From Paraflavitalea sp. CAU 1676 (lineage in GTDB: Bacteria; Bacteroidota; Bacteroidia; Chitinophagales; Chitinophagaceae): 64,000 nt of DNA. The translations under genes were made by a program, and so were the position numbers. Positions 38,618 to 60,439 of the stretch are shown in pieces. The notes beneath the pieces were generated by a model. The model was not told where the DNA came from, did not search any database, and saw only the letters and a program-made list of their open reading frames with translations. Each line of letters starts with the position of its first letter. Position 1 is the first letter of the stretch. The stretch is from assembly GCF_029223285.1 (NCBI RefSeq), contig NZ_JARHUJ010000004.1, positions 310,001-374,000 on the forward strand, written 5' to 3'.

Positions 38618-39880
38618 TTACTTAATGGAGAGTAGTTTATCACGGGCGATCAGGCAACCGCCTATAACGCCGGCTTTCTCCTGCAGCTTCGACATATGAA
38701 GTTGAGTATCGTTATTTACAAGGCTCAGTGAATATTTATTGAGCGCACTGCGTATCGGAAGGCGGATGTAGTCGCCGGTTTCGGCCAGGATGCCGCCGAG
38801 AATAACTAACTCGGGGTTGAATATATTGATAAGGACGGAGATGCCGCGGCCGATCTTTTCACCAATTTCGGCAATGAGTTCAATACATAATACGTCTTCA
38901 TTTTTTGCTGCTTGAATAATATCATACAGCCGCAAATGCTCGGGTAGTTTGTCCTTTTGCACCAGAACAGAGGTAGATCCCTGTTCTATCTTTTCCCTAA
39001 AGAGTCGCAACAACGCTTGCCCCGATGCTTCCGTTTCAAGACAACCTTTTTTGCCGCAATGACAAATGATCTCGTTGGCAAACAGAGGTATATGGCCAAA
39101 TTCTCCGCCAAACCCCGATTTCCCGCGATAGATCTTTCCATCGATCATAATACCCAGACCAATGCCGTAGTCCATATTGACAAACAGCACATTCTTCTCT
39201 TCCCGGACAAGCCCATTATGAAATTCGCCGTAGGCCATGGCTCTTGAGTCATTCTCCAGGTAAGTACGAATGCCAGTGATCTTTTCGATCGTGGTACTGA
39301 GGGGTTCTTCGTGAAAATGAAAATAACTGTAACTGTAGCCGTTTTCGCTATTGATGCGGCCCGATAGGTTGAGGCAAAGCGCCAGGATGTTCCGGTGCTC
39401 CTCGGGCAGGCGGGTAATAAAGGTTTGGATCACCCGCACCAGTTGATCAAATGCTTCCTTGGTATTCACCAAAGAATAGGGGACATGCATTTCTGCTTTT
39501 ACCAGGTTCTTTTTGAAATCGAGCAGTCCTATATTAATATAGTATTGCTTTACATCCACACCGAGAAAAAAAGCGGAATCCGCTACGAGCCCATACAGGT
39601 TCGCTTTGCGTCCACCACCTTTCGAATCTTCTTTCCCATAATCCTGTACCAGGCCGTCTGTGATCAATTCATTAATGAGGCTGGTGATCTTGGGTACACT
39701 GATATTCATCTCCTGTGCCAGATCGGTAATCGTGTTATTACCGGTTTGATCGAGGTGATTGATGATCTCTCTCTTGAACGCTTTGTTCTTATAGGCGACC
39801 CCTGAAGTGTTCTCTTCAGAAAATATTTCAAATATGCTTTGCTTGATTGCCATAGCTGGAAGGGGATAAAGTTTTTTCAT
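38618..39880 (-). CDS. ROK-family transcriptional regulator (NagC/XylR type)
   Basis: A 420-residue regulator: winged helix-turn-helix at about 33-85 (NNTITDLAQEMNISVPKITSLINEL), then a ROK sugar-kinase-like domain with GVDVKQYYINIGLLD (107 on), the NLSGRINSENG segment, NDSRAMAYGE, and the zinc motif CHCGKKGC followed by LETEASGQAL. Repressors of this type bind a sugar or sugar phosphate (GlcNAc-6-P for NagC). It is divergent from the epimerase gene, and an inverted repeat lies 12 bp before that gene, so it probably controls the amino-sugar locus at 40-60 kb. Met at residue 10 (39853) is an alternative start. Confidence 0.93.
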   Translation of the reverse strand: MKKLYPLPAMAIKQSIFEIFSEENTSGVAYKNKAFKREIINHLDQTGNNTITDLAQEMNISVPKITSLINELITDGLVQDYGKEDSKGGGRKANLYGLVADSAFFLGVDVKQYYINIGLLDFKKNLVKAEMHVPYSLVNTKEAFDQLVRVIQTFITRLPEEHRNILALCLNLSGRINSENGYSYSYFHFHEEPLSTTIEKITGIRTYLENDSRAMAYGEFHNGLVREEKNVLFVNMDYGIGLGIMIDGKIYRGKSGFGGEFGHIPLFANEIICHCGKKGCLETEASGQALLRLFREKIEQGSTSVLVQKDKLPEHLRLYDIIQAAKNEDVLCIELIAEIGEKIGRGISVLINIFNPELVILGGILAETGDYIRLPIRSALNKYSLSLVNNDTQLHMSKLQEKAGVIGGCLIARDKLLSIK

Positions 39881-39976
39881 TAACTAAGATAAGAGAATAG
39901 GGTTTAAATAATAACTATAGGCTAATTGAAGTATCCTAATAAAAATATTTACTAATTGTGTTCTTTTAATAAATTA

Positions 39977-40016
39977 ATTATTAAATTTACTAGCGAAAGT
40001 AAAACAAATTAATAAT
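39977..40016. promoter_or_regulatory. Inverted repeat, candidate ROK operator
   Basis: ATTATTAA (39977-39984) and TTAATAAT (40009-40016) are perfect inverse copies, extended inward by TTTAC/GTAAA (39986-39990 and 39998-40002). A third half-site TTAATAA lies at 39966-39972, making a second palindrome TTAATAA-N5-TTATTAA. The block ends 12 bp before the epimerase ATG and could overlap its promoter. A+T-rich palindromes of this kind are typical of NagC/Mlc-type operators, but the exact sequence is not a known consensus. Confidence 0.5.
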
Positions 40017-40027
40017 ATCAAGGTTAT

Positions 40028-41266
40028 ATGGCGTCAGATCTTAGTAATGCAAGCCTGATAGTAGCAGTATCCCCTGAAAATGAACCCTCCGGTAAGCCTT
40101 ATTCGGCCCTGTACCGGGATGAACTCATTGAAAACGTATTGCCTTTTTGGTTAAGGCATAGCCGGGACGAAAAGAACGGTGGTTATTTTACCTGTTTGCG
40201 TCGCGATGGCAGTGTATACGATACCGATAAATTTATGTGGCTCCAGGGACGCCAGGTATGGTGCTTCAGCTACATGTATAATAATGTAGCTCCTAAACAG
40301 GAGTGGCTCGATCTGGCCATTCATGGCGCCGGGTTCATGGAGAAGTATGGCCGCGATCATACAGCGGGCAACTGGTATTTCTCGCTTACAGCTGAAGGTA
40401 AACCACTAACCCAGCCATACAACATATTCAGCGACTGCTTTGCAGCAATGGGTTTTGCCGCTCTCGACAAGGCCAGCCCCAACGATCGCTATAAGCAGAT
40501 CGCTATCGATACCTTCGAAAATATTATTCGCCGCAAGGATAACTGGAAGGGCATTTATAATAAAGCCTACCCGGGCACCAGACCCCTCAAAGGGTTCAGC
40601 CTGCCAATGATCCTCTGCAATCTTTCGATCGAACTGGAACACCTGCTGGGAGCCAGTCGTGTAGATGAATTCATTCCCCAGGTCATACACGAAGTGATGG
40701 AGGTGTTTTATCAGCCCGAACATGGATTGATACTCGAAAGCGTACAACCCAATGGCGCCTTTTCCAACAGCTTTGAAGGCCGGCTCATCAATCCCGGCCA
40801 TACCATCGAAGCCATGTGGTTCATTATGGACCTCGGTAAACGTATGAACGACCAGGCGCTGATCCGCAAGGCCTGCGATATCATGCTGCATACGCTGGAG
40901 TATGGATGGGATAAAGAGTTTGGCGGCATCTTCTACTTTATGGATGTGCTGGGCAATCCACCACAACAACTGGAGTGGGATCAAAAGCTTTGGTGGGTGC
41001 ATGTGGAAGCCCTTGTTGCGTTGGCAAAAGGGTATGCGCTTACAGGTGATGAACACTGCCTGCGTTGGTTCAAAAAAGTACACCAATATACCTGGAAACA
41101 TTTCAGGGATGAACAATTTGGAGAGTGGTTTGGCTATCTCAACCGCAGGGGAGAGGTATTGCTCGACCTCAAAGGAGGCAAATGGAAAGGATGTTTCCAT
41201 ATACCCCGATCACTCTACCAGGTATGGAAAACCTGGGAAGCGCTCGAAGCAAATACAGCTAAATAA
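40028..41266 (+). CDS. N-acylglucosamine 2-epimerase (AGE family)
   Basis: A 412-residue cytoplasmic epimerase, (alpha/alpha)6 barrel, no signal peptide. The AGE signature WLQGRQVW is at 71-78 (R75), NPGHTIEAMWF at about 255-264 (H258, E261), WWVHVEAL (H325) and CFHIPRSLYQVW (H391). From memory of porcine AGE, R75, H258, E261 and H391 match its active site (R60, H248, E251, H382), so it should interconvert ManNAc and GlcNAc rather than cellobiose or mannobiose. It is first in the plus-strand locus and directly behind the ROK operator candidate. It places ManNAc-type sugars, for instance from sialic acid, into GlcNAc metabolism. Confidence 0.9.
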   Translation: MASDLSNASLIVAVSPENEPSGKPYSALYRDELIENVLPFWLRHSRDEKNGGYFTCLRRDGSVYDTDKFMWLQGRQVWCFSYMYNNVAPKQEWLDLAIHGAGFMEKYGRDHTAGNWYFSLTAEGKPLTQPYNIFSDCFAAMGFAALDKASPNDRYKQIAIDTFENIIRRKDNWKGIYNKAYPGTRPLKGFSLPMILCNLSIELEHLLGASRVDEFIPQVIHEVMEVFYQPEHGLILESVQPNGAFSNSFEGRLINPGHTIEAMWFIMDLGKRMNDQALIRKACDIMLHTLEYGWDKEFGGIFYFMDVLGNPPQQLEWDQKLWWVHVEALVALAKGYALTGDEHCLRWFKKVHQYTWKHFRDEQFGEWFGYLNRRGEVLLDLKGGKWKGCFHIPRSLYQVWKTWEALEANTAK

Positions 41267-41406
41267 GCCTGTTGGGCTAACCAGGCGGCCGGTGCAGTAA
41301 AAGAACCGTGTAATAAAAGGTAGGGACGTACTCAATTAACGATTGCTCATTCTCAATTGCCACGCTGATGATTGCTGCGTGACAACAATGATAAAACATA
41401 CGAAAA

Positions 41407-43269
41407 ATGAAAGGTAAGGTCCATTACTTATTGTATGTCTTACTGGCCGGCAGCATAACAATGCAGGCGCAACAGACCTTAAACACGGAGGTGTTGATCA
41501 TCGGGGGCGGGGCCAGTGGTACCACTGCCGGTATACAGGCAGCCAGGATGGGGGTAAAGACACTCATCGTGGAAGAAACCAACTGGCTGGGCGGAATGCT
41601 CACCGCTGCCGGCGTATCGGCCATCGATGGCAACCACCGCATGCCGGGTGGCCTCTGGGGAGAGTTCAGGCAAATGCTGTACAGGCATTATGGCGGCCCC
41701 GATTCCGTAGCCACAGGTTGGGTAAGCAACACACTGTTTGAACCACATATCGGCAATAAATTCCTGCAACAACTTACTTCAGCCGAAAAGAACCTGCAGA
41801 TATTATTCAATACCCGTTGGACAAGCGTAAAGCGCGAACACAATAAATGGACAGTAACGATTGCGCAAGGCAAACAACAGCAAACCATTCAGGCCACCAT
41901 TCTTATCGATGCCACCGAGTTGGGGGATGTAATGGCAGCGGCCGGCGCTAAATACGCCATCGGTATGGACAGCCGGTACGACACCGGAGAAGAACTGGCT
42001 CCTGAAAAGGCCAACGACATCATACAGGACCTCACCTATGTGGCCGTACTCAAAGATTATGGCAAAGGGGCAAACAAGACCATCGCTAAACCCGAGGGCT
42101 ACAACAAAGCTGAATTTGATTGTAGTTGCGATGTCAGTGATCCTGCTTCCTTCGATAGTCCGCAGAATAATTGTTACCGCATGATGCAATATGGCCGGCT
42201 GCCCGGTAACAAGTACATGATCAACTGGCCCAAATGCGGCAATGATATTTATCTCAATCTCATAGAAAAAACACCTGCAGAAAGAGAACAATTGCTGAAG
42301 CAGGCGAAATTGCACACGCTCCGTTTCCTTTACTACCTACAAACGGAACTGGGTTACAAACACCTCGGCCTGGCGGAGGATGAATTTCCCACAAAGGACA
42401 AGCTGCCCATGATTGCTTACCACCGCGAATCAAGGCGCCTGAAAGGATTGGTTAGTTTTACCGTAAATCACGTAGCCCGTCCATATGAAACAGCCGATGC
42501 GCTGTACCGTACCGGGATCGCCGTGGGAGACTACACCATCGATCACCATCACCTGAAGAATCCTTCCGCACCGGCCATCGACTTTGTCAAGATCAAAGTG
42601 CCCTCCTACAATGTGCCCATGGGTAGCCTGATACCACAAGGGGTGGAGGGGCTGATCGTTGCAGAAAAAAGTATCAGCGTAACCAATATTGTCAATGGCG
42701 CAACACGCCTGCAACCGGTGGTACTGCAGATCGGACAGGCAGCGGGTGCAATGGCTGCACTTTGCATACAGCAGCAAAAGCAACCCGCCCAGCTGAAAGT
42801 GCGCGATGTACAACAGCAATTACTCAGGGCGAATGGTTATATCATGCCTTTTATCGATGTGCCAACCACCGATCCTCAATTCAGCACCATACAAAAGATT
42901 GGTGCTACTGGAATTCTCAAAGGAACAGGCGTACCCTATATGTGGGCCAACCAGACCTGGTTTTATCCCGAACAGCCCATTAGTGGATACGAACTGGTGC
43001 AGGGGCTCCGTCTTTATTATCCTGCCTTAAAAACATACTTGGCGGCATCGGGTGAAATGCTCACAATTGCCGAACTGGTAAAGATCCTCAAAGCCATCAG
43101 CGTGGTGACCGATGAACAGCAACTGATCAAGGAGCTCACCGATGCCAGCATAAACCTACCCCGTGATAAACTCGCTCAATCGCTCAACAGGCGTGCTGTA
43201 GCGGTACTGCTCGACAAACACCTTCATCCTTTTGAGAAGTCAATCACTATTTCAGGTAGCCTGGAATAA
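41407..43269 (+). CDS. Exported FAD-dependent oxidoreductase with SLH-like C-terminus
   Basis: A 620-residue FAD_oxidored-family protein. A Sec-type signal peptide (1-22, ending MQAQ, no twin-arginine) precedes the dinucleotide fold with IIGGGASG (31-38), a Glu at the end of strand 2 (VEE, 55-57) and NWLGGMLTAAG (59-69). The family is sometimes annotated xanthan-lyase-like, but the visible fold is a flavin oxidoreductase. Residues about 483-540 resemble an S-layer-homology repeat (IDVPTTDPQFSTIQKIGATG, then a Phe-x-Pro-x-x-x-I turn), with a weaker second copy to the C-terminus. It may oxidise a sugar in the periplasm; FAD would have to be loaded after export. Confidence 0.85.
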   Translation: MKGKVHYLLYVLLAGSITMQAQQTLNTEVLIIGGGASGTTAGIQAARMGVKTLIVEETNWLGGMLTAAGVSAIDGNHRMPGGLWGEFRQMLYRHYGGPDSVATGWVSNTLFEPHIGNKFLQQLTSAEKNLQILFNTRWTSVKREHNKWTVTIAQGKQQQTIQATILIDATELGDVMAAAGAKYAIGMDSRYDTGEELAPEKANDIIQDLTYVAVLKDYGKGANKTIAKPEGYNKAEFDCSCDVSDPASFDSPQNNCYRMMQYGRLPGNKYMINWPKCGNDIYLNLIEKTPAEREQLLKQAKLHTLRFLYYLQTELGYKHLGLAEDEFPTKDKLPMIAYHRESRRLKGLVSFTVNHVARPYETADALYRTGIAVGDYTIDHHHLKNPSAPAIDFVKIKVPSYNVPMGSLIPQGVEGLIVAEKSISVTNIVNGATRLQPVVLQIGQAAGAMAALCIQQQKQPAQLKVRDVQQQLLRANGYIMPFIDVPTTDPQFSTIQKIGATGILKGTGVPYMWANQTWFYPEQPISGYELVQGLRLYYPALKTYLAASGEMLTIAELVKILKAISVVTDEQQLIKELTDASINLPRDKLAQSLNRRAVAVLLDKHLHPFEKSITISGSLE

Positions 43270-43304
43270 CCGGTCTTAAACATTCTAAACCTCCTTTTTA
43301 ACCA

Positions 43305-46300
43305 ATGCAGTTGTATATGAGACAATTCCGGCATCTAATGTTTGCAGGGCGCAGGATCTGGCTGCTCGCATTCTTACTGGCCTACCACCTATTGACATTT
43401 GGCCAAACCAAACCGGTAACAGGAACCATCACTTCCTCCGATGGCGTTCCGTTGGCCGGCGTAACAGTAGTGATCAAAGGCACTACACAGGGCACTTCTA
43501 CCGATGCTGCCGGCTACTTTAACTTACCCATCAGTACCGAAAAAGCTATTTTGGTAATCTCCATGACGGGGTATACATCGCTTACGCTGACTGCCAATGC
43601 AGGCGCATCATTGACCTTGAACCTTGAAAAGAAACTCAAAGACCTCGATGAAGTAGTAGTGGTAGGGTATGGCCGTCAAAAGAGAGGCAACGTGGTTGGT
43701 TCCGTAGCGCAGATCAGTGGCGAACAATTGAAGCAGGCGCCCGCTATGAACGTAACCAATATGCTGGCCGGTCGTTTGCCAGGTCTTACTACCGTACAAC
43801 AGTCGGGCCGCCCCGGAGCCGATGATGCCTCGCTCCGCATCCGTGGTGTGGGTTCCTATGCCAGCAGCTCGGCGCCCCTCATCATGATCGATAACGTGCA
43901 AAGACCCTCTTTTAGTCACCTCGATCCCAGTGAGATCGAAAGCATCACCATTCTGAAAGATGCCGTTTCTACTGCTGTATATGGCTTACAGGCAGCAAAC
44001 GGAATTATCCTTATCACCACCAAGCGTGGTAAAACCGGCAAACCGGTGGTAAGTTATGATGGTGCCGTAACCGTAAACCAGAATACCCGTTTCCCCAAGT
44101 TCCTCGATGGACCCGATTACATGCAGTGGTACAATAAAGGAACCGAAATGGACAATGAATACAATGAACATACCGGCGCCAGCATCGTGCCTTATGTTTA
44201 TTCACAAAAGCAGATCGATGAAGTAAGGAGTGGAACCAACACCAATCCGTTACTGGGTAATACCGATTGGCTCGATATGCTGGTGGGCAGAGAAAGCATC
44301 AGCCAGCAACATGCCATCACCGTTCGCGGTGGAACCGATAAGGTAAAATACTTTACGTCGGTTGGTATGCTCGATCAGGATGGAGTAGTAAGGAATACCG
44401 GTTTCAAACGCTACAACGTTCGTTCCAATATCGATGCGGAATTGAACGAGGTATTTTCCGTAGCGCTCGATCTGGGCCTTCGTCAACAACTGACCAATAC
44501 GCCCGGTATTTCTCCCGACAACACAGCCTACCTCAACCCGTTCTATCAGGGTGTGCGTATGCTGCCCAACCTGCCTATGTATGCGCCCAATGGATTACCA
44601 GTTGCCTATAATAGTAACGCAGGCTGGGTAAATCCCATCGCATCCGTTGAACAGTCGGGTTATCAAAGAGCTCAAACCAACGTGTTTCAGGGTAATATAT
44701 CATTCAAAATTAAAGTGCCCTGGGTAAAAGGTTTGGAAATGAAGTTGCTGACGGCTTACGACAAAAGCAGCACCGAGAATAAAAGCTGGTTGACGCCGTA
44801 TACGGTCATGGGCCGCGCGCGCGACCAGGTTTCCGGCGACTTTGTGACTATCAATACCCTGCCCGGTATCACCCGTACCACGCTGCGCCAATCCTTCAGT
44901 CAGTACAACCGCAAAACATTCCAGCCAAGCATCACCTATACAAAATCATTCGGCGATCATACGATCAATGCATTGGCCCTATACGAATGGTCTCAACAGA
45001 AATCAAACGTATTCTCTACCGGTGCCAGCAATTTCGCCCTCACCGATCTGCATGAGATCGATTACGGCAGCAAGGCTACCGAATACCTGATCGCTCCCAC
45101 AGGATCCAGCGATATCGATGATTCGAGAGCCGGTTATGTAGTTCGTTTGAACTATGGCTATAAAGACAAGTACCTGCTCGAAGTGGCAACCCGTTTCGAT
45201 GCCAACGTAAATTTCATCAAGAACAACCGTTGGCATCCGTTTCCCGGTGTTGGCCTCGGTTGGGTGATCAGCAAGGAAGACTTCTTCGACGACCTCACCA
45301 GTGTAGTGAGCCACCTGAAGCTGAAAGCCTCTTATGGTAAGCTGGGCAACGGATCGTCTATTGGCTCCTTCCCTTACCTCCAAACCTACCTGCTCACTAC
45401 CGCTCCTTCCATGGTGATCGGTGGCCAGCCGGTAGCAGCGCTTTATACCGGCGCCCCTCCCAACGTAGACCTTAAATGGGAAACTGCTTCATTCACCAAC
45501 GTCGGTTTCGAGTCGGTATTCCTGAACGGATTACTGGGTTTTGACTTCGAGTGGTTCTACAAACTCACCAATGATATCCTGGACAGTCCCGGTGGTCTTT
45601 ATCCTCCTTCCCTGGGCGGATATTATCCCTCCCTTATCAATAATGGTATCGTTGCCAATAAAGGGTTCGATTTGCAGATCAGGCACCGCAACAGGATCAA
45701 TAAGATCCAGTATGGTGTAACGGCCAACCTGAACTGGGCTAAGAATAAGATCCTGCGCAGGAATGAAAGTGCCGGATTGCCCGACTGGCAGCGCACAGTA
45801 GGCAGAAGTGTAGGTGAAAAGATGGGCTTTATCGTTGATGGTATGTACCAGAACTGGGAAGAAGCTGCCAATGGCGCCTCACCCAGTGGCGGCACCATTG
45901 CACCCGGGTTCTTCAAATACCGCGACCTCAATGGCGATGGCCGTCTCACCCGCACCGACGACATGACCTTTGTAGGCCGTAGCAATATCCCCGAATTGAT
46001 GTACGGTTTGAATCTCGACCTGCAATATGAAGGTTTTGATTTCAGTGCCCTGTTCCAGGGAGCGGCTTTGGTAAATGTCAACCTGGCCGGTACCTATGAA
46101 GGTTCCAGCGGCACCAGCGGTATCGACGACAATACACCGTTTACCAAAACATTCTATGGTTATGGTAACTCTCCCTATTTCCTCGTAGAGAACTCCTGGA
46201 CACCCGACAACCCCAATGCAGCTTATCCACGTCTTACGGCCTATAAATCTACCCTGTCGGCCCACAATGCACACTCCAATTCCGGTTGGATAAGAGATGG

Positions 46301-46517: not shown

Positions 46518-46534
46518 TCATCAATTCTGACTTT

Positions 46535-51524: not shown

Positions 51525-52996
51525 TGAAGGTCGTTAAACATATAATAGTGCTTATGCTGCTCCTGCCTGGAAGTTTTACCGCTTTCCCGCAGGAGCTTCC
51601 TGTTTCCGTACACGTATTGGTGAAAGGTAAGATCTCTGATACACAGGGCAAACCCCTGCCCAATGTAGCGGTCACTGATGGCACTACCATCACCTATACT
51701 GATAAAAAAGGGGCTTATCACCTGGAAAGTACCCGCCAGTCCATGTTTGTCTATATCACCCTGCCAGCCGGATATGAAATTCCGACCGAAGACAACATGG
51801 CGAAATTCTACCAACGCATACAACCTGTAAAAGGTAAGTTTAGGGCCGATTTCAAGCTGCGGCCACTCGTTCAAAACGATCAGCGACATTTTGCCATCGT
51901 GTGGGCCGACCCGCAGATCAACAATAAAGAAGAAGCCAATCAATTGCACGCCACCGCCGTACCCGACACCAAAGAACTGGCTGCACAACTCATGCAGGAG
52001 GCGCCCGTGCATGGCATCGCCGCCGGCGATCTCTCCTGGGATGCGCCACCCATCATTCCCGAATACAAAAAGGCCATCAGATCGACCGGAATTCCTTTCT
52101 TCCAGGTATTGGGCAATCACGACATGGATATCCATGTTCGCAGCGATGAGCAGTCCGATAGCACCTTCCGCAAGAGCATGGGCCCCACCTGGTATTCCTT
52201 CAACAGAGGTAAAGCACACTATATCGTGCTCGACAACGTATTCTATTTTTCCGACGGTTACAATTATATGGGGTATGTAACCGAGCAGCAGTTCCGCTGG
52301 CTCGAGCAAGATCTGAAAACCGTAAAGCCAGGTTCACTGGTATTTGTGTCCATGCACATCTCCGCTTATACCAACGAGAAAGCCCGCACCAAAGCCAGCG
52401 CCGATCAACCTGGCGATGTAACGATGAACCGCAAGCATCTCTACAAATTGCTGGCTCCGTTTCAAACGCATTTCCTGACGGGCCATACGCATTACAACGA
52501 AAATATTATCCACGACAATATATATGAACACATCCATGCTGCAGTGTGTGGTACCTGGTGGATCAGCCCGCTCTGCGGCGACGGTACACCCCGTGGCTAT
52601 GGCGTTTATGAGATCAATGGCGACAGTGTACAATGGTATTATAAAACGGTAGGGAAAGATAGAAACTACCAGATGCGGGTATACAATAAGGGAGCTTATA
52701 AGAACAGGCCGCTGGATATCGCCGTAAATGTCTGGAATTACGATGAAGCCTGGAAAGTGGAGTGGTACGAAGATGACCAGTTTAAAGGCAGCATGCGCCG
52801 CGAAACGGAATACGATGCCGCAGTAACTGATTTCCTTACAGGACCTCAACGTCCGGCAAAGTATCCCTGGGCCCGCCCGCTGCTCACTGATCACCTGTTT
52901 TTTGCAACCCCATCGGGCATAGCAAACACGGCCACCATCGTGGTAACAGACAGGTTTGGCAATAAACACCAGGAAAAGATCATCCTGCAACAATAA
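51524..52996 (+). CDS. Exported calcineurin-like phosphoesterase with flanking beta domains
   Basis: A 490-residue periplasmic metallophosphoesterase. Signal peptide 1-23 (cleavage near FPQE); N-terminal beta-sandwich (about 30-115); metallophosphatase core with ADPQ (D129, with Gln where many relatives have His), GDLSWD (D169), GNHD (197-200), MHI and TGHTHYNEN near 320; C-terminal beta domain (about 400-490). This three-part architecture is the MetallophosN/C type. It would cleave a phosphate mono- or diester on the imported glycan. Translation is coupled to the GHL10 gene upstream by a TAATG overlap. Confidence 0.88.
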   Translation: MKVVKHIIVLMLLLPGSFTAFPQELPVSVHVLVKGKISDTQGKPLPNVAVTDGTTITYTDKKGAYHLESTRQSMFVYITLPAGYEIPTEDNMAKFYQRIQPVKGKFRADFKLRPLVQNDQRHFAIVWADPQINNKEEANQLHATAVPDTKELAAQLMQEAPVHGIAAGDLSWDAPPIIPEYKKAIRSTGIPFFQVLGNHDMDIHVRSDEQSDSTFRKSMGPTWYSFNRGKAHYIVLDNVFYFSDGYNYMGYVTEQQFRWLEQDLKTVKPGSLVFVSMHISAYTNEKARTKASADQPGDVTMNRKHLYKLLAPFQTHFLTGHTHYNENIIHDNIYEHIHAAVCGTWWISPLCGDGTPRGYGVYEINGDSVQWYYKTVGKDRNYQMRVYNKGAYKNRPLDIAVNVWNYDEAWKVEWYEDDQFKGSMRRETEYDAAVTDFLTGPQRPAKYPWARPLLTDHLFFATPSGIANTATIVVTDRFGNKHQEKIILQQ

Positions 52997-53045
52997 ACAT
53001 AGGTGGGATAGGACGCATTGGCGATCATATCCTGTTGATACATCC

Positions 53046-54440
53046 ATGCAACGCAACAATAGTTTAGACGCATTAAGAGGCCTGGCCATACTGGCCATGG
53101 TTTTATCGAGCAGTATCGCCTTTGGTATATTGCCCGCCTGGATGTACCATGCGCAAACACCTCCGCCGGGTCACACATTCAATCCTTCCCTGCCCGGCAT
53201 AACCTGGGTAGACCTCGTGTTCCCCTTCTTTCTTTTTAGCATGGGCGCCGCCATTCCATTGGCCCTGCATAAAAAAGTGAAAGCAGGCGCCGGCTTCCTG
53301 TTGGTGCTTTACACGGCCGCCCGCCGTTACCTGTTGCTCGTATTCTTTGCACTTTTTACACTGCATGCACGCAGCAATATCATGACCGGTACTCCTGCAC
53401 CGGTGTACTACCTGCTTTCTATCGTCGCCTTCGTAATGTTGTTCTTCCAGTTTTACAAACCGGCAGGGCCGCAATACCAAAAGTTATTCCTCGTAATTCG
53501 AATACTCGCTTTTGCCGCAGCGGCGCTGATGCTGTACGGGCTGCCCTTTAAGGATGGCAGAGGTTTCTCCTTCGATAGAAGCGATATCATCATTATTGTA
53601 TTGGGTAATATGGCATTCTTCGGCACGCTTATTTGGTGGTTTACAAAAGACAAACCCTGGATACGGATGGCAATACTGCCCTTTCTGATGGCAATACTGG
53701 TGGGCGGTAAAGAACAGGGCACCTGGAACGAAATGGTGCTGCAATGGTCGCCACTGCCCTGGATGTATAAATTCTATTACCTGAAATACCTGTTTATCAT
53801 CCTGCCTGGTACACTGGCCGGCGACTGGATGCTGACGTACGGTACAGAACATCATTTTTCCAAAGGCAGTCCGGTCAAATGGAATACCGGCCTTACCTCC
53901 TTATTATCTTTTGCGGTTATAGTAACCAATGTTATATTGCTTTTTGGCCGCTACACGGTGCTCAACCTTATCCTTACGGCCATACTTTGCCTGGTGATAT
54001 ATCTATCCCTGAAAAAACAAGCTGCGCAACAACCATTGATCATGGCTTTTTTCAAAGCCGGGGTGTATTTATTGGTGCTGGGGCTATTTCTTGAAGCGTA
54101 TGAAGGCGGCATTAAAAAGGATCCCTCCACGTTCAGTTACTATCTCGTAACAAGCGGACTGGCTTTCTTTATGTTGATCGCATTTTACGGATTTCAATAT
54201 TCGGCTGTTGGCGAGCGGGTAGTAAATTACCTCAGTCTCAATGGCCGAAATCCAATGGTGGCTTATGTAGCCGGCAACCTGTTGCTGCTGCCGCTCCTCC
54301 ATCTTACAGGCGCCATATCGCTTTACGGGGGGATGCAGCACGCCGTGGCAACCGGCTTCCTGAGTGGCATATTATTCACCGGCATCGTTTCGCTCATAAC
54401 CGTGTGGTTTACGAAGCGGGGCTGGTTATGGAAAACCTGA
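53046..54440 (+). CDS. DUF5009 / HGSNAT-like acyltransferase membrane protein
   Basis: A 464-residue inner-membrane protein with about 11 predicted helices. It begins SLDALRGLAILAMVL (6-20) and carries H43 in PPGHTFNP and TWVDLVFPFFLFSMGAA (53-69), as in the DUF5009 and heparan-alpha-glucosaminide N-acetyltransferase group. Relatives carry acetyl groups across a membrane to a glucosamine. ATG 53046 is chosen because the family motif begins right after it, 49 bp after the phosphoesterase stop. Its presence beside four esterases suggests acetyl-group handling in this locus. Confidence 0.85.
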   Translation: MQRNNSLDALRGLAILAMVLSSSIAFGILPAWMYHAQTPPPGHTFNPSLPGITWVDLVFPFFLFSMGAAIPLALHKKVKAGAGFLLVLYTAARRYLLLVFFALFTLHARSNIMTGTPAPVYYLLSIVAFVMLFFQFYKPAGPQYQKLFLVIRILAFAAAALMLYGLPFKDGRGFSFDRSDIIIIVLGNMAFFGTLIWWFTKDKPWIRMAILPFLMAILVGGKEQGTWNEMVLQWSPLPWMYKFYYLKYLFIILPGTLAGDWMLTYGTEHHFSKGSPVKWNTGLTSLLSFAVIVTNVILLFGRYTVLNLILTAILCLVIYLSLKKQAAQQPLIMAFFKAGVYLLVLGLFLEAYEGGIKKDPSTFSYYLVTSGLAFFMLIAFYGFQYSAVGERVVNYLSLNGRNPMVAYVAGNLLLLPLLHLTGAISLYGGMQHAVATGFLSGILFTGIVSLITVWFTKRGWLWKT

Positions 54441-54463
54441 TCGTTAACCTGGAATAGCATTAA

Positions 54464-55165
54464 ATGATAATACTTCGGCAAACACATAGTAAGTTGATGA
54501 AGGCTGCCTGCCTCATTGGTATCTTTTGCTGTCTTGGCCATGCCGGGCATGCGCAGACAGTCGACAGCAGCTATCACAATTACCTGTACGATAGTCGACT
54601 CGCTTATTTCAAACAACTTTCGCCTGTAAAGAAGGCCATTGTGTTCTGGGGTGATAGCATTACCGATTGGGGCGATTGGGCCGAGTTCTTACAATTCAGG
54701 AAAGCCATCAACCGGGGTATTGCCGGCGATAATACATACGGCCTAAGGGCCCGCCTCGGCGAAGTGCTGCGCCACCGGCCAAAGAAATTGTTTATCCTCA
54801 TTGGTACCAACGACATCAATAAAAAGATACCTGTTCATTGTATCGTGGAGAACTACCGGAAGATCATCGGTGAGGTAAAAGCCAAATCACCTGCAACCAC
54901 TTTGTATGTGCAAAGCGTATTCCCGATCAATGACCAGCTTATTGGCCGGCAGTATTACAGCGGCACCAATGAGCAGATCATGGAGCTGAACAACGCCCTG
55001 AAGGGGCTGGCAGCTGAAATGTTGGTAACATATGTCGATATATATCCCGCCTTGCTTGATGCCCGGCAGCAACTCGATGCACGTTATACCTACGATGGTT
55101 TGCACCTGTCGGGCCTCGGGTACCAGGCCTGGGTCAGCTATCTCAAAAAGGAACGCCTGCTCTGA
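54464..55165 (+). CDS. SGNH/GDSL-type esterase (paralogue 1)
   Basis: A 233-residue exported esterase. Signal segment about residues 11-30 (MKAACLIGIFCCLG begins at residue 12, so 54497 is a possible start). Catalytic blocks: WGDSITD (S65), RGIAGDN (Gly of block II), GTNDIN (N116) and DGLHLS (D211, H214). All four SGNH residues are present. The protein is the first of three paralogues in the locus, which share the order IVF-GxSIT-NRGI-GDN. It probably removes acetyl or other acyl esters from a carbohydrate in the periplasm. Confidence 0.88.
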   Translation: MIILRQTHSKLMKAACLIGIFCCLGHAGHAQTVDSSYHNYLYDSRLAYFKQLSPVKKAIVFWGDSITDWGDWAEFLQFRKAINRGIAGDNTYGLRARLGEVLRHRPKKLFILIGTNDINKKIPVHCIVENYRKIIGEVKAKSPATTLYVQSVFPINDQLIGRQYYSGTNEQIMELNNALKGLAAEMLVTYVDIYPALLDARQQLDARYTYDGLHLSGLGYQAWVSYLKKERLL

Positions 55166-55227
55166 TCAATAATCATCAATAAGCATACTATTAAATCATT
55201 CACTTTCACATTCGACTTTACACTATC

Positions 55228-57090
55228 ATGAATCTATCCACCCTGGACATCATTATCATCCTGCTTTACCTGGTCGTGATCATTGGCCTTGGATTCTGGA
55301 TATCCAAAAAAGCGGCTAAGAATATTCAGTCCTACTTCCTCGGCGATAACAATATCAAATGGTATTGGCTCGGTTTCAGTAACAGCAGCGGAATGTTTGA
55401 TGTAAGCGGAACTGCATTCTATGTAGCGCTTCTGTTCATCTATGGATTCAAAGCTGCCTGGCTTCCCTGGCTCTGGCCTATCTGGAACCAGATCTTCGTG
55501 ATGGTCTTTCTGGCCATCTGGATACGCCGCAGTAATGCAATGACCGGGGCCGACTGGATCATTAAACGATTCGGCGATGATAAAGGGGGCCGCATGGCCC
55601 ATATGATCGTAGTGATCTTTGCGATCGTGAGCGTTATCGGATTTATTGGATACGTATTTGTTGGTATCGGTAAGTTTGCCGCCAACATTCTGCCCTGGGA
55701 TCTCGCCAATGCGGTGCTGACCAATCAGCAAACATATGCCCTCATTATCGTCATGCTGACGACACTCTATACGGTAAAGGGCGGCATGTACAGTGTGGTA
55801 GCCACTGAGGTACTGCAATACGGAATCCTGGTGGTGAGTTGTATACTCGTGGTGGTCTTTGCCGTAAAGGGAGTTGATTACGACGCACTCCATCAGAAGT
55901 TGCCACAGGGCTGGGCCTCCTTTTGGCCCGAATGGAAATTGAATGTGAATTGGGGTAATACCTTTTCCCAGGCTAATCAGAAAATAGAAGAAGATGGATT
56001 TATCTGGTTTGGCGCCCTGGTGTTGATGATGATCGGCAAAGGCATCTTCGCCAGTCTGGCAGGGCCGGTACCTGGTTTCGACATGCAGCGCATCCTCAGT
56101 GCCAAGAAACCCTGGGAAGCAGCCAAGCTCTCCGGATTCACCAATCTCGTATTGTACATACCATTGTTCATGATGGTAAGCGCGCTTACCCTGATCGCCT
56201 TCAATTCATTCATGCCCACCCTGCAGGGGCAGGAGAAGCCCGATTTTGAAGTGATCCTGAGTCAGGTGGTCAGCAATTACCTGCCCGCGGGTATCCGGGG
56301 CGTGGTACTCGCAGGCCTGCTCGCATCCTTCATGAGTGCATTCTCTGCTTTTGTGAATGCCGCGCCTGCTTACCTCGTTAATGACTTTTATAAAAAATAC
56401 TTCCGGCCCCATGAAAGTCCGCGCCATTATGTGAAATGCAGTTACCTCACCTCGATAGCCATCATTGCCATCGGATGCTTTTTCGGACTCTTTGCCGATT
56501 CATTGAGTTCTCTTACCCTGTGGATATCTTCGGCACTTTATGGTGGTTATGCCGCTGCCAACGTGTTGAAATGGATCTGGTGGCGTTTCAATGGCTATGG
56601 TTATTTCGCCGGTATGTTTGCCGGATTGATCTCTGCCAGCTTTGTACCTAAATTGATGGCCTGGTTGGGCAACAACGTCTTTACCGACTACCGGGAACTG
56701 TTTGGTAGCGGCATCGGAACACTCATTTCATTTTTCATCATACTCGTGTTATCTATTTCGGCCAGTATCATCGGCTGCCTGCTTACACCTCCACCCGCCA
56801 GGAATGTGTTGGAGTCGTTCTATGCCAATACAAAGCCCTGGGGATTCTGGGAGCCTGTGTTGCAATGGGTGCGCCAGGAAAATCCTGCCTTCGAACCTAA
56901 CCGCCAGTTCAAGTGGGATATGCTGAATGTGCTGGTTGGCATATGCTGGCAGATGAGCATGGTGATCATGCCGATCTTCTTTGTATTTGGTTATTTCAGT
57001 TACGGCTTTACAGCATTGGGCGTATGGATCGTGTGTATGATCATCCTGAAATTCACCTGGTACGATCGCCTTAAAATCACCGCTGCATAA
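55228..57090 (+). CDS. Sodium:solute symporter (SSS family)
   Basis: A 620-residue inner-membrane symporter with at least 13 predicted helices: LDIIIILLYLVVIIGLGFWISKK at the start, SNSSGMFDVSGTAFYVAL (helix 2, sodium-site region), AGLLASFMSAFSAFVNAAPAYLVNDFY (the SSS signature region around residue 375), and a C-terminal extension. Family members carry sugars, sialic acids, amino acids or vitamins with sodium. It sits between SGNH paralogues 1 and 2 and is the only inner-membrane uptake system in the locus, so it probably carries the released monomer. Substrate is inferred. Confidence 0.92.
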   Translation: MNLSTLDIIIILLYLVVIIGLGFWISKKAAKNIQSYFLGDNNIKWYWLGFSNSSGMFDVSGTAFYVALLFIYGFKAAWLPWLWPIWNQIFVMVFLAIWIRRSNAMTGADWIIKRFGDDKGGRMAHMIVVIFAIVSVIGFIGYVFVGIGKFAANILPWDLANAVLTNQQTYALIIVMLTTLYTVKGGMYSVVATEVLQYGILVVSCILVVVFAVKGVDYDALHQKLPQGWASFWPEWKLNVNWGNTFSQANQKIEEDGFIWFGALVLMMIGKGIFASLAGPVPGFDMQRILSAKKPWEAAKLSGFTNLVLYIPLFMMVSALTLIAFNSFMPTLQGQEKPDFEVILSQVVSNYLPAGIRGVVLAGLLASFMSAFSAFVNAAPAYLVNDFYKKYFRPHESPRHYVKCSYLTSIAIIAIGCFFGLFADSLSSLTLWISSALYGGYAAANVLKWIWWRFNGYGYFAGMFAGLISASFVPKLMAWLGNNVFTDYRELFGSGIGTLISFFIILVLSISASIIGCLLTPPPARNVLESFYANTKPWGFWEPVLQWVRQENPAFEPNRQFKWDMLNVLVGICWQMSMVIMPIFFVFGYFSYGFTALGVWIVCMIILKFTWYDRLKITAA

Positions 57091-57092
57091 AA

Positions 57093-57767
57093 ATGAGAAC
57101 CTATTTATTAGCCGCGTTGCTGGCCATGGGTGCCGGCGCCCGCGCTCAATCGACCGAATCGACCGACAGTAGTTATGCCAATGGATACTATGTAGAGCGG
57201 GTGAAATATTTCGATAGCCTGCATCCGGTAAAAAAAGGGATCGTATTTCTCGGCAACAGCATAACTGAGGTAGGGGAGTGGTCGGAAGTATTGCCCGGTA
57301 AACCTGTTGTAAACCGCGGCATCAGCGGCGACAATTCCTGGGGCGTATACGCCCGCCTCGATCAGGTACTTGCTATGCAGCCACGGAAGATCTTCCTGCT
57401 CATTGGTGTCAATGATATAAAGCGGGGCACCGGTATAGATGCAATCGTAAACAACTACGATCGCATCGCTGCAAAGATCAAAGCAGCCTCACCGCGCACG
57501 AAATTGTATTTCCAAAGCGTATTGCCGGTTACGGAATCGGTACTGGCCAATATTTATGTGAATATCACCAATGCAAAGATCAAAACGTTGAATGAACGCA
57601 TGGAGGTGATCGCTGCCAAATACAATTGCCCTTTTATCGACCTGCATCCTGTATTCGACGATGGCAAAGGGCAATTGAAAAGGGAACTCACCACCGATGG
57701 ATTGCACCTCAAACCGGCGGCCTATATATTATGGGCCAACTACCTGATGCAGGGCAAATATTTGTAG
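57093..57767 (+). CDS. SGNH/GDSL-type esterase (paralogue 2)
   Basis: A 224-residue exported esterase that starts 2 bp after the symporter stop. Signal peptide 1-18 (ending ARAQ). Catalytic blocks: LGNSITE with S56 (Asn in place of the Asp of GDS), NRGISGDN, GVNDIK (N107) and DGLHLK (D202, H205), so the Ser, Asn, Asp and His are kept. It is closely similar to paralogue 3. The GNS variant is common in the family and does not by itself imply loss of activity. Confidence 0.88.
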   Translation: MRTYLLAALLAMGAGARAQSTESTDSSYANGYYVERVKYFDSLHPVKKGIVFLGNSITEVGEWSEVLPGKPVVNRGISGDNSWGVYARLDQVLAMQPRKIFLLIGVNDIKRGTGIDAIVNNYDRIAAKIKAASPRTKLYFQSVLPVTESVLANIYVNITNAKIKTLNERMEVIAAKYNCPFIDLHPVFDDGKGQLKRELTTDGLHLKPAAYILWANYLMQGKYL

Positions 57768-57815
57768 GGCAGGCCAGAAAGACTAGAAGACCTATTAATC
57801 CCAAAAAGTAGCACT

Positions 57816-58544
57816 ATGCAAATACAAGATCGTACCGTTTTATCGGCAGGCATTGCAAGGCAGGTTTTGCGCCTTGCCTTCTATTCAATATTGACATTAT
57901 CGGCAACATCCTCACTGGCACAGGAGCCGCCAAAGAAGATCGACAGCAGTTACAACAACACCTACTACCAGGGCCGTATGGAATTGTTCAACACCTTGCC
58001 CCTGCAGCAAAAAGGCATCGTGTTCCTGGGCAATAGCATCACGGAACGTGGTAACTGGAGCGAACTACTGCCCGGCCAAAAGATCATGAACCGCGGCATC
58101 GGCGGCGATAACACCTTTGGTGTATTAGCCCGCCTCGATATGGTGGTGAAGGCGAACCCGAAGAAAGTGTTCCTGCTCATTGGAATTAACGACCTCAGCC
58201 GGGCCCTGCCTCGCGAAGTGATCCTGCACAACTACGAGCGTATCATTAATTATATTCGAACCAACGCTCCCAAAACGACCCTGTACGTGCAAAGCGTATT
58301 GCCATTGTATGAGCCGCTCACTACCGCTGCTTACCTGAAGAACAAGAAGGACAGTATCCTGCAATTGAATGTAGGCATCAAAGCGCTGGCCGATAAGTAC
58401 AAGCTGACCTACATCAACCTGCATGAAGTATTAGCCGATGGCAATGGCGACCTGAAAAAAGAATACACGGCGGACGGCATCCACCTGCGGCCGGCAGCCT
58501 ATGTATTGTGGGTAGATTTTCTCCGGAAAAAGAAGTATCTCTGA
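57816..58544 (+). CDS. SGNH/GDSL-type esterase (paralogue 3)
   Basis: A 242-residue exported esterase, signal segment about 13-35 (ending SLAQ). Catalytic blocks: LGNSITE (S74), NRGIGGDN, GINDLS (N125) and DGIHLR (D220, H223). The mature part is very like paralogue 2 (for instance ARLD, FLLIG, LYVQSVLP), pointing to tandem duplication. It follows paralogue 2 by 48 bp and precedes the alpha/beta-hydrolase gene by 17 bp. Confidence 0.88.
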   Translation: MQIQDRTVLSAGIARQVLRLAFYSILTLSATSSLAQEPPKKIDSSYNNTYYQGRMELFNTLPLQQKGIVFLGNSITERGNWSELLPGQKIMNRGIGGDNTFGVLARLDMVVKANPKKVFLLIGINDLSRALPREVILHNYERIINYIRTNAPKTTLYVQSVLPLYEPLTTAAYLKNKKDSILQLNVGIKALADKYKLTYINLHEVLADGNGDLKKEYTADGIHLRPAAYVLWVDFLRKKKYL

Positions 58545-58561
58545 TCCATAAAGACAAGTAC

Positions 58562-59434
58562 ATGAAGCGATCTCTGTTAATAGTGCCTTTGTTCGTATGC
58601 GCCATTGGGCTGGCAGCACAGGCACAAAAACCTGCACGCCACACCTATGCACTCAAAGCGCAGGATACCCTGTGGATGGATCAGTATAAACCAACCACAA
58701 CCCCCAACGGAATTTCCGTGCTGTTTGTGCATGGCGGAGCGTTTACCGGCGGCGACCCTGTAAACCAGCAGCCCATGGCCGATGGCCTCTCCAAACTCGG
58801 CTACCAGGTATTCGTCATTAAATACCGGCTATACCTGAAGGGTAAAAGCTTTGGGTGTGAAACAGCCCTGCCCGAAAAACTAAAAGCTATACACCAGGCG
58901 GTGGAGGATGCCGACGATGCTACCAAATACCTCGTAACCAACGCGGCAGTACTGCGCGTAGATACGAGCAAGATCTTCATCGCGGGCAGCAGCGCCGGCG
59001 CCGAAGCTATCCTTAACCTGGTATACAATCCCTTTGTTCGTAAGGGCGATAAGAATTACAAACCCTTCCGTTATGCCGGCGCGATGTCCTTCGCGGGTGC
59101 TATTCTCGATATCAATAACATCGATGCAAGACCGCCCCTGCCGTTGCTGATGATGCACGGCACCAACGATCAGCTGGTGCCTTATGGTACATCGGCTCAT
59201 CGCTTCTGTAAGGCAGTTGACGCCGGTTGGATGATTATGTTTGGCGCCCAAACCCTATATACCGAAATGGCAAAAAGGAACTGGCCGGTAGTATTGTACA
59301 GTTACGAAGGCAAGGGGCATGAAGTAAGTAACTATATGTTCAGGAAGTTTAAAGAGATGGACGAGTTCATGAAAGCCGCCGTGCTGGGCCACAGCCTGCC
59401 GATGGCGCATATCATTGTTAAGAAAGAAGAATAA
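58562..59434 (+). CDS. Exported alpha/beta-hydrolase (acetyl/feruloyl-esterase-like)
   Basis: A 290-residue exported hydrolase. Signal peptide 1-22 (ending AAQAQ). HGGA (57-60) forms the oxyanion part, GSSAG (142-146) holds nucleophile S144, TND (D203) and GKGHEVS (H253) complete the triad. This arrangement is like BD-FAE-type and hormone-sensitive-lipase-type carbohydrate esterases. ATG 58562 is used; an in-frame ATG at 58508 overlaps the SGNH gene and would add residues before the signal peptide. It is a fourth ester-cleaving enzyme in the locus. Confidence 0.86.
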   Translation: MKRSLLIVPLFVCAIGLAAQAQKPARHTYALKAQDTLWMDQYKPTTTPNGISVLFVHGGAFTGGDPVNQQPMADGLSKLGYQVFVIKYRLYLKGKSFGCETALPEKLKAIHQAVEDADDATKYLVTNAAVLRVDTSKIFIAGSSAGAEAILNLVYNPFVRKGDKNYKPFRYAGAMSFAGAILDINNIDARPPLPLLMMHGTNDQLVPYGTSAHRFCKAVDAGWMIMFGAQTLYTEMAKRNWPVVLYSYEGKGHEVSNYMFRKFKEMDEFMKAAVLGHSLPMAHIIVKKEE

Positions 59435-59509
59435 TACAGTGCGCAGATGCCGTTTGAGCCGCTTGCCGGCAATGCAGCAAAGAATTAAATAAGTGAAAAA
59501 ACTGGTACA

Positions 59510-60439
59510 ATGAAAATTACGGGAACCTTTCTCGATGAGATCAGTCATGATATTCCGCACCAGAACTGGGGTGCAAAAGAATGGCGAAAGGACTTTGAGC
59601 ACATGAAGGCGATCGGCATCGATACTGTGATCCTGATCCGCAGTGGTTACAGGAAGTTCATCACCTATCCCTCGGAATACTTGATAACGGAACACGGATG
59701 TTATCGTCCGCCCGTCGACCTGGTAGAGCTCTTCCTGCAACTCGCCGACGAGCTGGATATGCAATTTTATTTTGGTCTGTACGATAGTGGCAAATATTGG
59801 GATACCGGCAACATGCAGCACGAGATCGACAGTAACCGCTTCGTAATAGATGAAGTGTGGAAACAATACGGTCATCACAAGAGTTTCAAAGGCTGGTACC
59901 TCAGTATGGAGATCAGTCGCAAAACGAAAGGTGCTACTGAAGCCTTCAGAACCCTGGGCCACCAGTGCAAGGGGGTGAGCCATAACCTGCCAACGCTCAT
60001 CTCACCCTGGATCGATGGTAAGAAGGCAGTCATGGCTGCTACCGCTACCCTTAGCAAGGAAGATGCCGTATCGCTCAAAGCGCATGAACAGGAGTGGAGC
60101 GAAATATTTGCCGGCGTACAGGGAACCGTCGATGCGGTGGCATTCCAGGACGGCCATATCGACTACCACGAGCTCGACGATTTCTTTGCCGTGAATAAAC
60201 AAATGGCCGACCGCTTTGGTCTGCAATGCTGGACCAATGCCGAAAGTTTCGACCGTGATATGCCGATCAAATTCTTTCCCATAAAATTTGAGAAGCTGCG
60301 CCTGAAACTGGAGGCAGCGAAGCGCGCAGGATATGATAAGGCCATCACCTTCGAGTTTTCGCATTTCATGAGTCCGCAATCGGCCTACCTCCAGGCCGGA
60401 CACCTGTACAACAGGTACAAGGAATACATTGGACTGTAA
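59510..60439 (+). CDS. DUF4434-family protein, no signal peptide
   Basis: A 309-residue protein of the DUF4434 type, a (beta/alpha)8 fold related to glycoside hydrolases: ITGTFLDEISHDIPHQNWG at the start, GIDTVILIRSGY, FYFGLYDSG, and a C-terminal NAESFDRD with a conserved acidic pair. Starting at once at the first strand, it has no signal peptide, so it would act in the cytoplasm, unlike most hydrolases of the locus. It is the last gene of the plus-strand group and is followed by a long hairpin. The activity is not established. Confidence 0.78.
   Translation: MKITGTFLDEISHDIPHQNWGAKEWRKDFEHMKAIGIDTVILIRSGYRKFITYPSEYLITEHGCYRPPVDLVELFLQLADELDMQFYFGLYDSGKYWDTGNMQHEIDSNRFVIDEVWKQYGHHKSFKGWYLSMEISRKTKGATEAFRTLGHQCKGVSHNLPTLISPWIDGKKAVMAATATLSKEDAVSLKAHEQEWSEIFAGVQGTVDAVAFQDGHIDYHELDDFFAVNKQMADRFGLQCWTNAESFDRDMPIKFFPIKFEKLRLKLEAAKRAGYDKAITFEFSHFMSPQSAYLQAGHLYNRYKEYIGL

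Follow-up and report, generated by a model that had tools for sequence, protein, structure and literature searches.

In the lysosomal breakdown of heparan, HGSNAT N-acetylates glucosamine (GlcN) and NAGLU, an enzyme of family GH89, removes it. Proteins of the DUF5009 family group with HGSNAT in a study that describes a DxxR motif for TmAT/HGSNAT-like acyltransferases and states that experimental confirmation is lacking for all DUF5009 proteins (excerpt of PMC12423673). GHL10 is the family of Cwp19, a lytic transglycosylase of C. difficile (excerpt of PMC6016235) for which Asp196 is the proposed catalytic residue (excerpt of PMC5765458). We describe here a locus that contains DUF5009 and GHL10 genes in a 64,000-nucleotide stretch (the window; positions 310001-374000 of contig C18) of the 8.84-Mb genome (G000) of Paraflavitalea sp. 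CAU 1676. In Bacteroides thetaiotaomicron, genes BT0438-40, BT0442, BT0446-49 and BT0451-54 carry family names that match those of the locus (excerpt of PMC10434189). Bt0438 is an alpha-N-acetylglucosaminidase (excerpt of PMC8225759), and the same organism is described as having a sialidase and lacking a Nan operon (excerpt of PMC4747158). The window locus is real, is conserved in relatives and belongs to a known kind of utilization locus, though it is uncharacterised and unusual in its set of enzymes. Judged from its gene families, the best-supported substrate class is a phosphodiester-bearing, esterified polymer of N-acetylmannosamine (ManNAc) and N-acetylglucosamine (GlcNAc). We tentatively favour, at somewhat less than an even chance, a locus for a phosphodiester-containing, ester-decorated ManNAc/GlcNAc polymer that is most likely a teichoic-acid-like polymer of Gram-positive walls; teichoic acid is our best guess as the leading specific candidate.

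Domains were identified by Pfam and NCBIfam scans of 20 window proteins on a map of open reading frames (ORFs), and signal peptides and lipoprotein starts were called by eye from the N-termini. Gene content, linkage, conservation, domain families and these compartment signals are observed directly. Every family named in a preliminary description of the window, made from the letters alone, was found in its place (Table 1). The 14 genes from the epimerase gene (AGE) to the DUF4434 gene all lie on the plus strand with intergenic gaps of -41 to 140 bp, which bears out the earlier impression of a nearly one-stranded run with short gaps. The ROK regulator gene diverges from AGE across 147 bp, where the palindromes are AT-rich and unconvincing. 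Signal sequences were seen on the FAD oxidoreductase (FADox), the metallophosphoesterase (MPE), the SGNH enzymes and the alpha/beta-hydrolase, and none on AGE or DUF4434. SusD, DUF5018 and GHL10 have lipoprotein-like N-termini, and the DUF5018 lipoprotein is probably a surface glycan binder. By its predicted proteins, an adjacent susC/susD pair (43305-48241) in one run with glycan-active enzymes and a regulator, with linkage conserved in relatives, the locus is a Sus-type polysaccharide utilization locus (PUL). It probably begins earlier than first drawn, at a 402-aa protein, because homologues of this protein adjoin the same genes in the L022, G380 and G302 loci. The reported lack of a classical carbohydrate-active enzyme holds for the window locus and not for every relative, as the G073 locus has GH89 and two GH97 genes; GH20 lies alongside the locus in G032 and GH92 in G254.

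The gene set recurs in Ferruginibacter, a Chitinophagaceae isolate, Arcticibacter, Caecibacteroides, Tannerella (diverged) and further relatives. A chance grouping appears unlikely because matching sets occur in other genera. The preliminary description had staked its proposal on conservation of the set as a unit in relatives, and the comparison did not refute it. Searching named genomes with MPE gave 41 loci. Three of them, from a Ferruginibacter metagenome-assembled genome (L020), Chitinophagaceae DXS (L021) and Arcticibacter (L022), carry the larger part of the set at identities of mostly 50-87%, lower for extra SGNH copies. Tannerella (L037-L039) and Caecibacteroides (L040) have diverged versions, and the other 34 have little in common with the window apart from MPE and distant matches to SusC/SusD. 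In L024-L036, from Chitinophaga and relatives, the MPE homologue (44-47%) mostly follows a different SusC and two proteins of about 500 aa, and is often itself followed by very large ORFs, the longest of 2567 aa (L025). These genes may represent a separate conserved system.

A class-level sample of 395 genomes, in which each protein was counted at its own E-value limit, contained MPE in 15, AGE in 24, DUF4434 in 10 and FADox in 19. All ten DUF4434 genomes, which span six families, also have FADox (P 4e-15) and an AGE-family gene (P 9e-14; eight of the window's clade), these P values being hypergeometric and uncorrected for kinship among genomes. Within 20 kb of DUF4434, FADox was found in eight of the ten and AGE also in eight, a set not identical to the first. 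The DUF4434 gene adjoins AGE directly in L022, G202 and G327. A second sample, 201 genomes from the family of G032 (taken to be Bacteroidaceae), had DUF4434 in 11, several with full versions of the locus; the order in G566 is ROK, then DUF4434, sugar porter, AGE, SusC, SusD, DUF5018, NAGPA, GHL10, MPE, SASA, GHL10 and DUF5009. Three markers of the locus were rejected: MPE, present in 15 of the 395 genomes and in such a locus only in G000, G073 and G032; AGE alone, which marks sialic-type loci too; and FADox alone, which occurs also beside GH18 or other neighbours.

The counts over 15 loci given below refer to loci with a SusCD pair and a DUF4434 gene (orthologue or diverged) within the stretch fetched (roughly 20-60 kb, 17 kb for L040, with genes farther away outside the view), namely the window, L020, L021, L022, G380 (locus L119), G254, G073, G032, G566, G538, G524, G552, G339, G302 (locus L121) and L040. 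Left out were G463, a near-duplicate of G032; G422, G404 and G409, whose stretches were truncated or unread; G396, with SusCD only next to a second DUF4434 copy; Tannerella, whose stretch is without DUF4434 or AGE; G202, G392 and G306, where no SusCD was seen; and G327, with a distant SusC only and SusD not identified. ADP-ribosylglycohydrolase-like proteins lie inside the DUF4434-AGE loci L204 and L207 (G552 and G524), and the G552 locus also holds a PfkB kinase and a ureide-permease-like protein.

The substrate class is argued from the epimerase and the phosphoester enzymes. AGE interconverts ManNAc and GlcNAc, and the window protein scores 673 bits against an NCBIfam equivalog cut-off of 600 (NF052547). 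To our knowledge, only a pathway that yields ManNAc calls for AGE. An enzyme acting on phosphoesters, whether MPE, NAGPA (phosphodiester glycosidase) or GDPD, was found in 13 of the 15 loci, that of G552 as a phmmer match only. The metal-site residues of MPE are invariant in nine sequences, the window's included, and its metal-site motifs are intact apart from DPQ in place of the usual DxH; its sequence matches in the PDB are weak. NAGPA is present in five of the 15, lying in the GHL10/MPE region in L020, G380 (where it occupies the MPE slot) and G566, beside DUF5009 in G032 and after a second type of GHL10 in G254. Among solved structures, the L020 copy matches GlcNAc-1-phosphodiester alpha-N-acetylglucosaminidases and 3ohg. 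In G524, genes for GDPD and another metallophosphoesterase lie near one for a CE2 esterase, and in G073 the GH89 and two GH97 genes occur together with DUF5009 and two MPE genes. The earlier proposal of an acylated, phosphate-bearing amino-sugar polymer thus gains support from the phosphoester enzymes, several esterase types and the AGE gene in every DUF4434 genome of the class sample. Its teichoic-acid-like candidate is favoured by NAGPA, the GDPD of G524, the GH97 and GH89 of G073 and the need for AGE, and is disfavoured by the lack of GDPD and NAGPA among the 20 window proteins. Among the literature matches listed, none assigned a substrate to this locus and, by titles and abstract starts, none treated teichoic acid together with PULs.

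The alternative candidate of the preliminary description was an O-acetylated sialylated glycan, in which enzymes encoded elsewhere would release and cleave sialic acid, AGE would convert the ManNAc and the SGNH enzymes would be sialate O-acetylesterases. Like that description, whole-genome searches with PF00701 (DHDPS) and PF13088 (BNR_2) found no match in C18:310001-374000, so the window has no neuraminate lyase with a sialidase, the pair by which we recognise a nan locus. The genome as a whole has five DHDPS-family matches, seven BNR_2 matches and three AGE-family genes. The suggestion to look in the rest of it for nanA and sialidase genes led to a run on contig C17 of SusC, SusD, DHDPS, a major facilitator superfamily (MFS) transporter, a sialidase-like BNR protein, an AGE-family protein, SASA and GH20. 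Its SusD matches NanU (4l7t) at E 2e-119, against E 6e-7 for the window SusD, which is not of NanU type. Of the models, N-acetylneuraminate lyase suits the C17 DHDPS best, though the 131 bits fall short of the cut-off of 281; the AGE-family protein of the run, at 358 bits, does not reach the AGE cut-off of 600. The run is, on the strength mainly of NanU and the neighbours, a separate nan-type locus. A second BNR/DHDPS cluster, with a fusion of NANM to an SSF transporter, lies on C21. Because the genome has a separate nan-type locus, the window epimerase is probably not its sialic-acid epimerase.

The epimerase clade itself speaks for both sides. In 15 genomes it occurs eight times in window-type loci, five times in sialic-type loci (L122, L124, L125, L129 and L130, each with sialidase-like, DHDPS and NANM-SSF genes) and twice in neither. 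A sialylated substrate is further favoured by G032, where MFS, NanA-like and AGE-family genes lie beside FADox and SASA, sialidase and GH20 genes at the other end, by SASA in L040 and several loci of the G032 family, and by BT_0439 having been called implicated in host glycans. It is opposed by the separate nan-type run of this genome, by the window SusD not being of NanU type, by the rarity of NanA-like and sialidase genes, found together in one of the 15 loci (G032, with a DHDPS below the lyase cut-off at 137 against 281 bits), and by B. thetaiotaomicron, which has BT_0435 but lacks a Nan operon (excerpt of PMC4747158). It also leaves MPE, NAGPA, DUF5009, GDPD and DUF4434 unexplained. The sialylated candidate is thereby weakened, and we regard it as unlikely. 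In the sialic-type loci L016 (C21 of the window genome, 5953-8592), L124 and L129, the NANM propeller (N-acetylneuraminate epimerase-like) is fused to the SSF transporter. L017 (C19, 9430-13239) encodes a 1269-aa protein with an alpha-L-rhamnosidase module set and a BNR_2 propeller.

A bacterial capsule or exopolysaccharide with sugar-1-phosphate diesters, of the O-acetylated poly-ManNAc-1-phosphate or GlcNAc-1-phosphate type, is quite unlikely. NAGPA and MPE would open the diesters and the esterases remove O-acetyl groups, which suits AGE and the NAGPA of five loci with its match to solved GlcNAc-1-phosphodiester glycosidases. Such a polymer has no need for GH89, GH97, GHL10 or DUF4434, however, and the window locus showed no NAGPA, both copies in the genome lying on other contigs. 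We consider alpha-glucosamine phosphoinositol glycans, such as the head groups of glycosylphosphatidylinositol anchors or plant glycosyl inositol phosphorylceramides, improbable. For these, DUF5009 would N-acetylate GlcN for removal by GH89, MPE and NAGPA would cut phosphodiesters, esterases would cut the lipids, and the SSF symporter or sugar porter would import inositol. GH89 and DUF5009 do share a locus in G073, GH89 is BT0438 in B. thetaiotaomicron, near BT_0435 by locus number, and GH92 is present in G254. AGE would remain unexplained, though eight of the ten class genomes with DUF4434 have the two linked, and GH89 is not in the window locus, its only match in the genome being on another contig.

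The preliminary description had seen in GHL10 and DUF4434 the only possible glycosidases of the locus, and both do look like glycosidases, with the stronger case for DUF4434. The closest solved relative of GHL10 by sequence is Cwp19. At the Cwp19 Asp196 position, after strand 4, the window protein has Tyr in a weak pairwise alignment, so it lacks the Cwp19-type residue, and 12 further GHL10 stretches of the locus type have Tyr or Arg (the pattern was not found in 2 of 15). A second type, four proteins from G254 (two), G202 and G306, keeps Asp-Asp. Because the Asp196 position is Tyr, lytic transglycosylase activity would not be transferable to the window GHL10. Peptidoglycan foraging, with GHL10 as lytic transglycosylase, an AmpG-like importer, SGNH O-acetyl esterases and DUF5009 repairing N-deacetylated GlcN, is the most improbable of the readings. 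In its favour are the Cwp19 relationship, AmpG-like MFS proteins in L020, L022 and G254, the Asp-Asp GHL10 type and the auxotrophy of Tannerella for N-acetylmuramic acid (MurNAc; from an excerpt). Against it, the locus GHL10s have Tyr or Arg where the motif was found, the AmpG scores of 120 and 133 bits fall far short of the cut-off of 350, the scan of 20 window proteins gave no match to amidases, NlpC/P60 or MurNAc catabolism, families not looked for in relatives, and AGE is not needed.

DUF4434 is modelled as a TIM barrel (predicted local distance difference test score, pLDDT, 82.6), and among solved structures it comes closest to BT_0435 of B. thetaiotaomicron (PDB 4h41; 72% identity), which its depositors labelled a putative alpha-L-fucosidase. 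This label does not fit AGE or the context of the locus. Next closest are Cwp19, GH5 mannanase, GH10 xylanase, GH53 galactanase and PgaB. Retaining glycosidases of clan GH-A are TIM barrels with Glu after strands 4 and 7. In 14 DUF4434 sequences Glu134 and Glu245 are invariant, and in the predicted model they follow strands 4 and 7 (126-131 and 239-243), as in clan GH-A. No paper on DUF4434 was found in the literature search, and for acetylmannosaminidase and BT_0435 the matches listed were all unrelated work matching the letters bt0435.

The compartment of DUF4434 follows the importer. All eight proteins without a signal peptide occur with an SSF importer (window, L021, G380, G202 and G392) or an AmpG-like importer (L020, G254 and L022, the last on the opposite strand beside AGE). 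All ten with a twin-arginine (Tat)-type signal, nine of them independent, occur with a sugar-porter MFS (G073, G032, G339, G566, G538, G552, G524, G422, G396 and the near-duplicate G463). The tally leaves out G327, whose SSF gene is about 17 kb distant, G306, which showed no importer, and two genomes with a Tat-type start, G404 (importer not labelled) and G409 (neighbourhood not read). Fisher's test gave P 0.006, from 8 and 3 cases with phylogeny ignored, and the groups coincide with a split between lineages. Because the compartment follows the importer type, DUF4434 may act on the transported glycoside, inside the cell where a glycoside is imported and outside where a monosaccharide is, and release the sugar that AGE converts; the pattern is suggestive only. 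We infer that this sugar would be ManNAc, which, if true, is a new activity for the family. A bolder version, which we think unlikely as a whole, makes DUF4434 a new N-acetylmannosaminidase family that splits the ManNAc-GlcNAc linkage unit of teichoic acid or a similar polymer to free ManNAc, and the locus a route of gut, oral and soil Bacteroidota to Gram-positive wall polymers, with periplasmic N-acetylation by DUF5009 and oxidation by FADox. In Caecibacteroides, L040 (8720-11353) encodes a fusion of DUF4434 and MPE by Pfam, that is, glycosidase and phosphoesterase in one chain; an apparent GHL10-MPE fusion by our own profiles occupies the matching slot in L089 of G032 (9268-11943).

DUF5009 scores 40.6 bits against the NagX model, below its cut-off of 480, and its PDB sequence matches looked like chance. 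Its DxxR motif (D38 and R41, in the first transmembrane segment) is invariant in 10 of 10 sequences, as in TmAT/HGSNAT-like proteins. FADox (model pLDDT 87.6) retrieved only generic flavoproteins in a fold search, with query-normalised TM scores of at most 0.33 among the 50 matches listed. Its gene lies in one run with SusC and GH18 genes in G127 and G267, a hint of a link to N-acetylhexosamine glycans. In G339, a 1048-aa protein with split FAD_oxidored matches (L126, 1127-4273) adjoins a normal FADox gene.

For a teichoic-acid-like or related polymer, DUF5018 and SusD would bind fragments for import by SusC, the SGNH and alpha/beta-hydrolase esterases would remove acyl groups (O-acetyl or D-alanyl), and MPE, in relatives also NAGPA or GDPD, would break phosphoesters. 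GHL10 may cleave glycosidic bonds outside, and DUF5009 could N-acetylate free hexosamine in the periplasm from cytosolic acetyl-CoA. The SSF symporter would import the remaining glycoside, from which cytosolic DUF4434 would free the N-acylhexosamine; AGE would convert ManNAc to GlcNAc, with the ROK protein sensing the amino sugar. The activity of each protein on its real substrate, the order of the steps and the substrate are what we infer, and the exported FADox has no role in this route, which leaves it unexplained. If teichoic acid is the target, the locus would show Bacteroidota feeding on the walls of Gram-positive neighbours.

Several observations weigh against this route. G339 and G302 yielded no phosphoester enzyme, GDPD was found in one locus only (G524), and the scan of the 20 window proteins showed no GDPD, NAGPA, GH89 or GH97, the rest of the genome not having been searched for GDPD. 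The stretches fetched for G566, G552, G524, G422 and G396 showed no FADox, so it is not essential to the locus. AGE is unlinked to DUF4434 in two of the ten class genomes, and in one of them, G392, it sits in the sialic-type locus L129. G392 groups only SSF, DUF4434 and FADox, and G306 has only DUF4434 beside a different GHL10; because of these reduced sets the core may serve another glycan. The G032 locus is combined with NanA-like, sialidase and GH20 genes, and BT_0439 of B. thetaiotaomicron was detected on galacto-oligosaccharides and milk oligosaccharides. With these points counted, we still rank a sialylated glycan as less likely than the phosphodiester-bearing polymer, and peptidoglycan and GlcN-inositol glycans as less likely again.

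Table 1. Genes of the locus, with positions in the window
Feature	Position	Strand	Evidence
402-aa protein without Pfam match, N-terminus resembling a signal peptide (by eye), probable member of the locus	37313-38521	-	
ROK-family regulator, winged-helix N-terminus, divergent from operon	38618-39880	-	ROK E 7e-52; HTH_24
AGE, N-acyl-D-glucosamine 2-epimerase, no signal peptide seen	40028-41266	+	GlcNAc_2-epim E 8e-77; NF052547; PDB 6f04, 2gz6
FAD oxidoreductase (FADox, PF12831), exported	41407-43269	+	Pfam; signal-like N-terminus
SusC-like TonB-dependent outer-membrane transporter	43305-46517	+	Pfam
SusD-like lipoprotein, not NanU	46535-48241	+	best PDB match 3qnk; NanU 4l7t E 6e-7
DUF5018 lipoprotein	48333-50015	+	Pfam; N-terminus
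GHL10+DUF4985 lipoprotein, TIM-barrel, glycosidase-like, motif LDxxR[YF]	50124-51524	+	Pfam
Calcineurin-like metallophosphoesterase (MPE; MetallophosN/Metallophos/MetallophosC), exported	51491-52996	+	Pfam
DUF5009, HGSNAT/NagX-like transmembrane acetyltransferase	52956-54440	+	Pfam
SGNH/GDSL esterase 1 (Lipase_GDSL_2), exported	54464-55165	+	Pfam; N-terminus
SSF sodium:solute symporter, inner-membrane importer	55228-57090	+	Pfam; closest solved relatives are sodium/glucose cotransporters
SGNH/GDSL esterase 2, exported	57093-57767	+	Pfam; N-terminus
SGNH/GDSL esterase 3, exported	57816-58544	+	Pfam; N-terminus
Alpha/beta-hydrolase (BD-FAE), esterase-like, exported	58508-59434	+	Pfam; N-terminus
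DUF4434, TIM-barrel putative glycosidase without signal peptide, BT_0435 relative (PDB 4h41)	59510-60439	+	

Directly downstream and convergent lies an AraC regulator with a DJ-1/PfpI domain (60672-61649), probably outside the locus.

Among described systems, the BT0435-BT0454 region of B. thetaiotaomicron has the same unusual families as the window, and its DUF4434 protein is the 72% identical BT_0435; presumably it also has an AGE gene. The product names available in excerpts (PMC10434189, PMC8225759) are DUF4434 for BT_0435, GH89 for BT0438, a TonB receptor and SusD for BT0439-40, then DUF5009, a family 10 glycosylhydrolase, a calcineurin-like phosphoesterase and another family 10 glycosylhydrolase for BT0446-49, and SusD, a TonB receptor and MFS for BT0451-54. 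We read "family 10 glycosylhydrolase" as GHL10. Unlike the window locus, the region has GH89; these relatives have been reported as gut-induced, with the substrate reported as unknown, BT_0435 and BT0446 falling outside both gene ranges so described. The nan loci of Bacteroidota have the AGE epimerase, SusCD and esterases in common with the window, and G032 merges both types, whereas the window is without a DHDPS or BNR_2 match and without a NanU-type SusD, and has MPE, DUF5009, GHL10, DUF4434 and FADox. To the lysosomal HGSNAT and NAGLU pair the locus is related through DUF5009, which groups with HGSNAT (excerpt of PMC12423673), and the G073 locus also has GH89; the window locus is without GH89, and no sulfatase or uronidase was found among the window proteins scanned. 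Cwp19 shares the GHL10 domain, to which the window protein adds DUF4985, with Tyr at the Asp196 position. The comparison narrows the substrate question to a phosphodiester-linked ManNAc/GlcNAc glycan and makes DUF4434 the first enzyme of interest.

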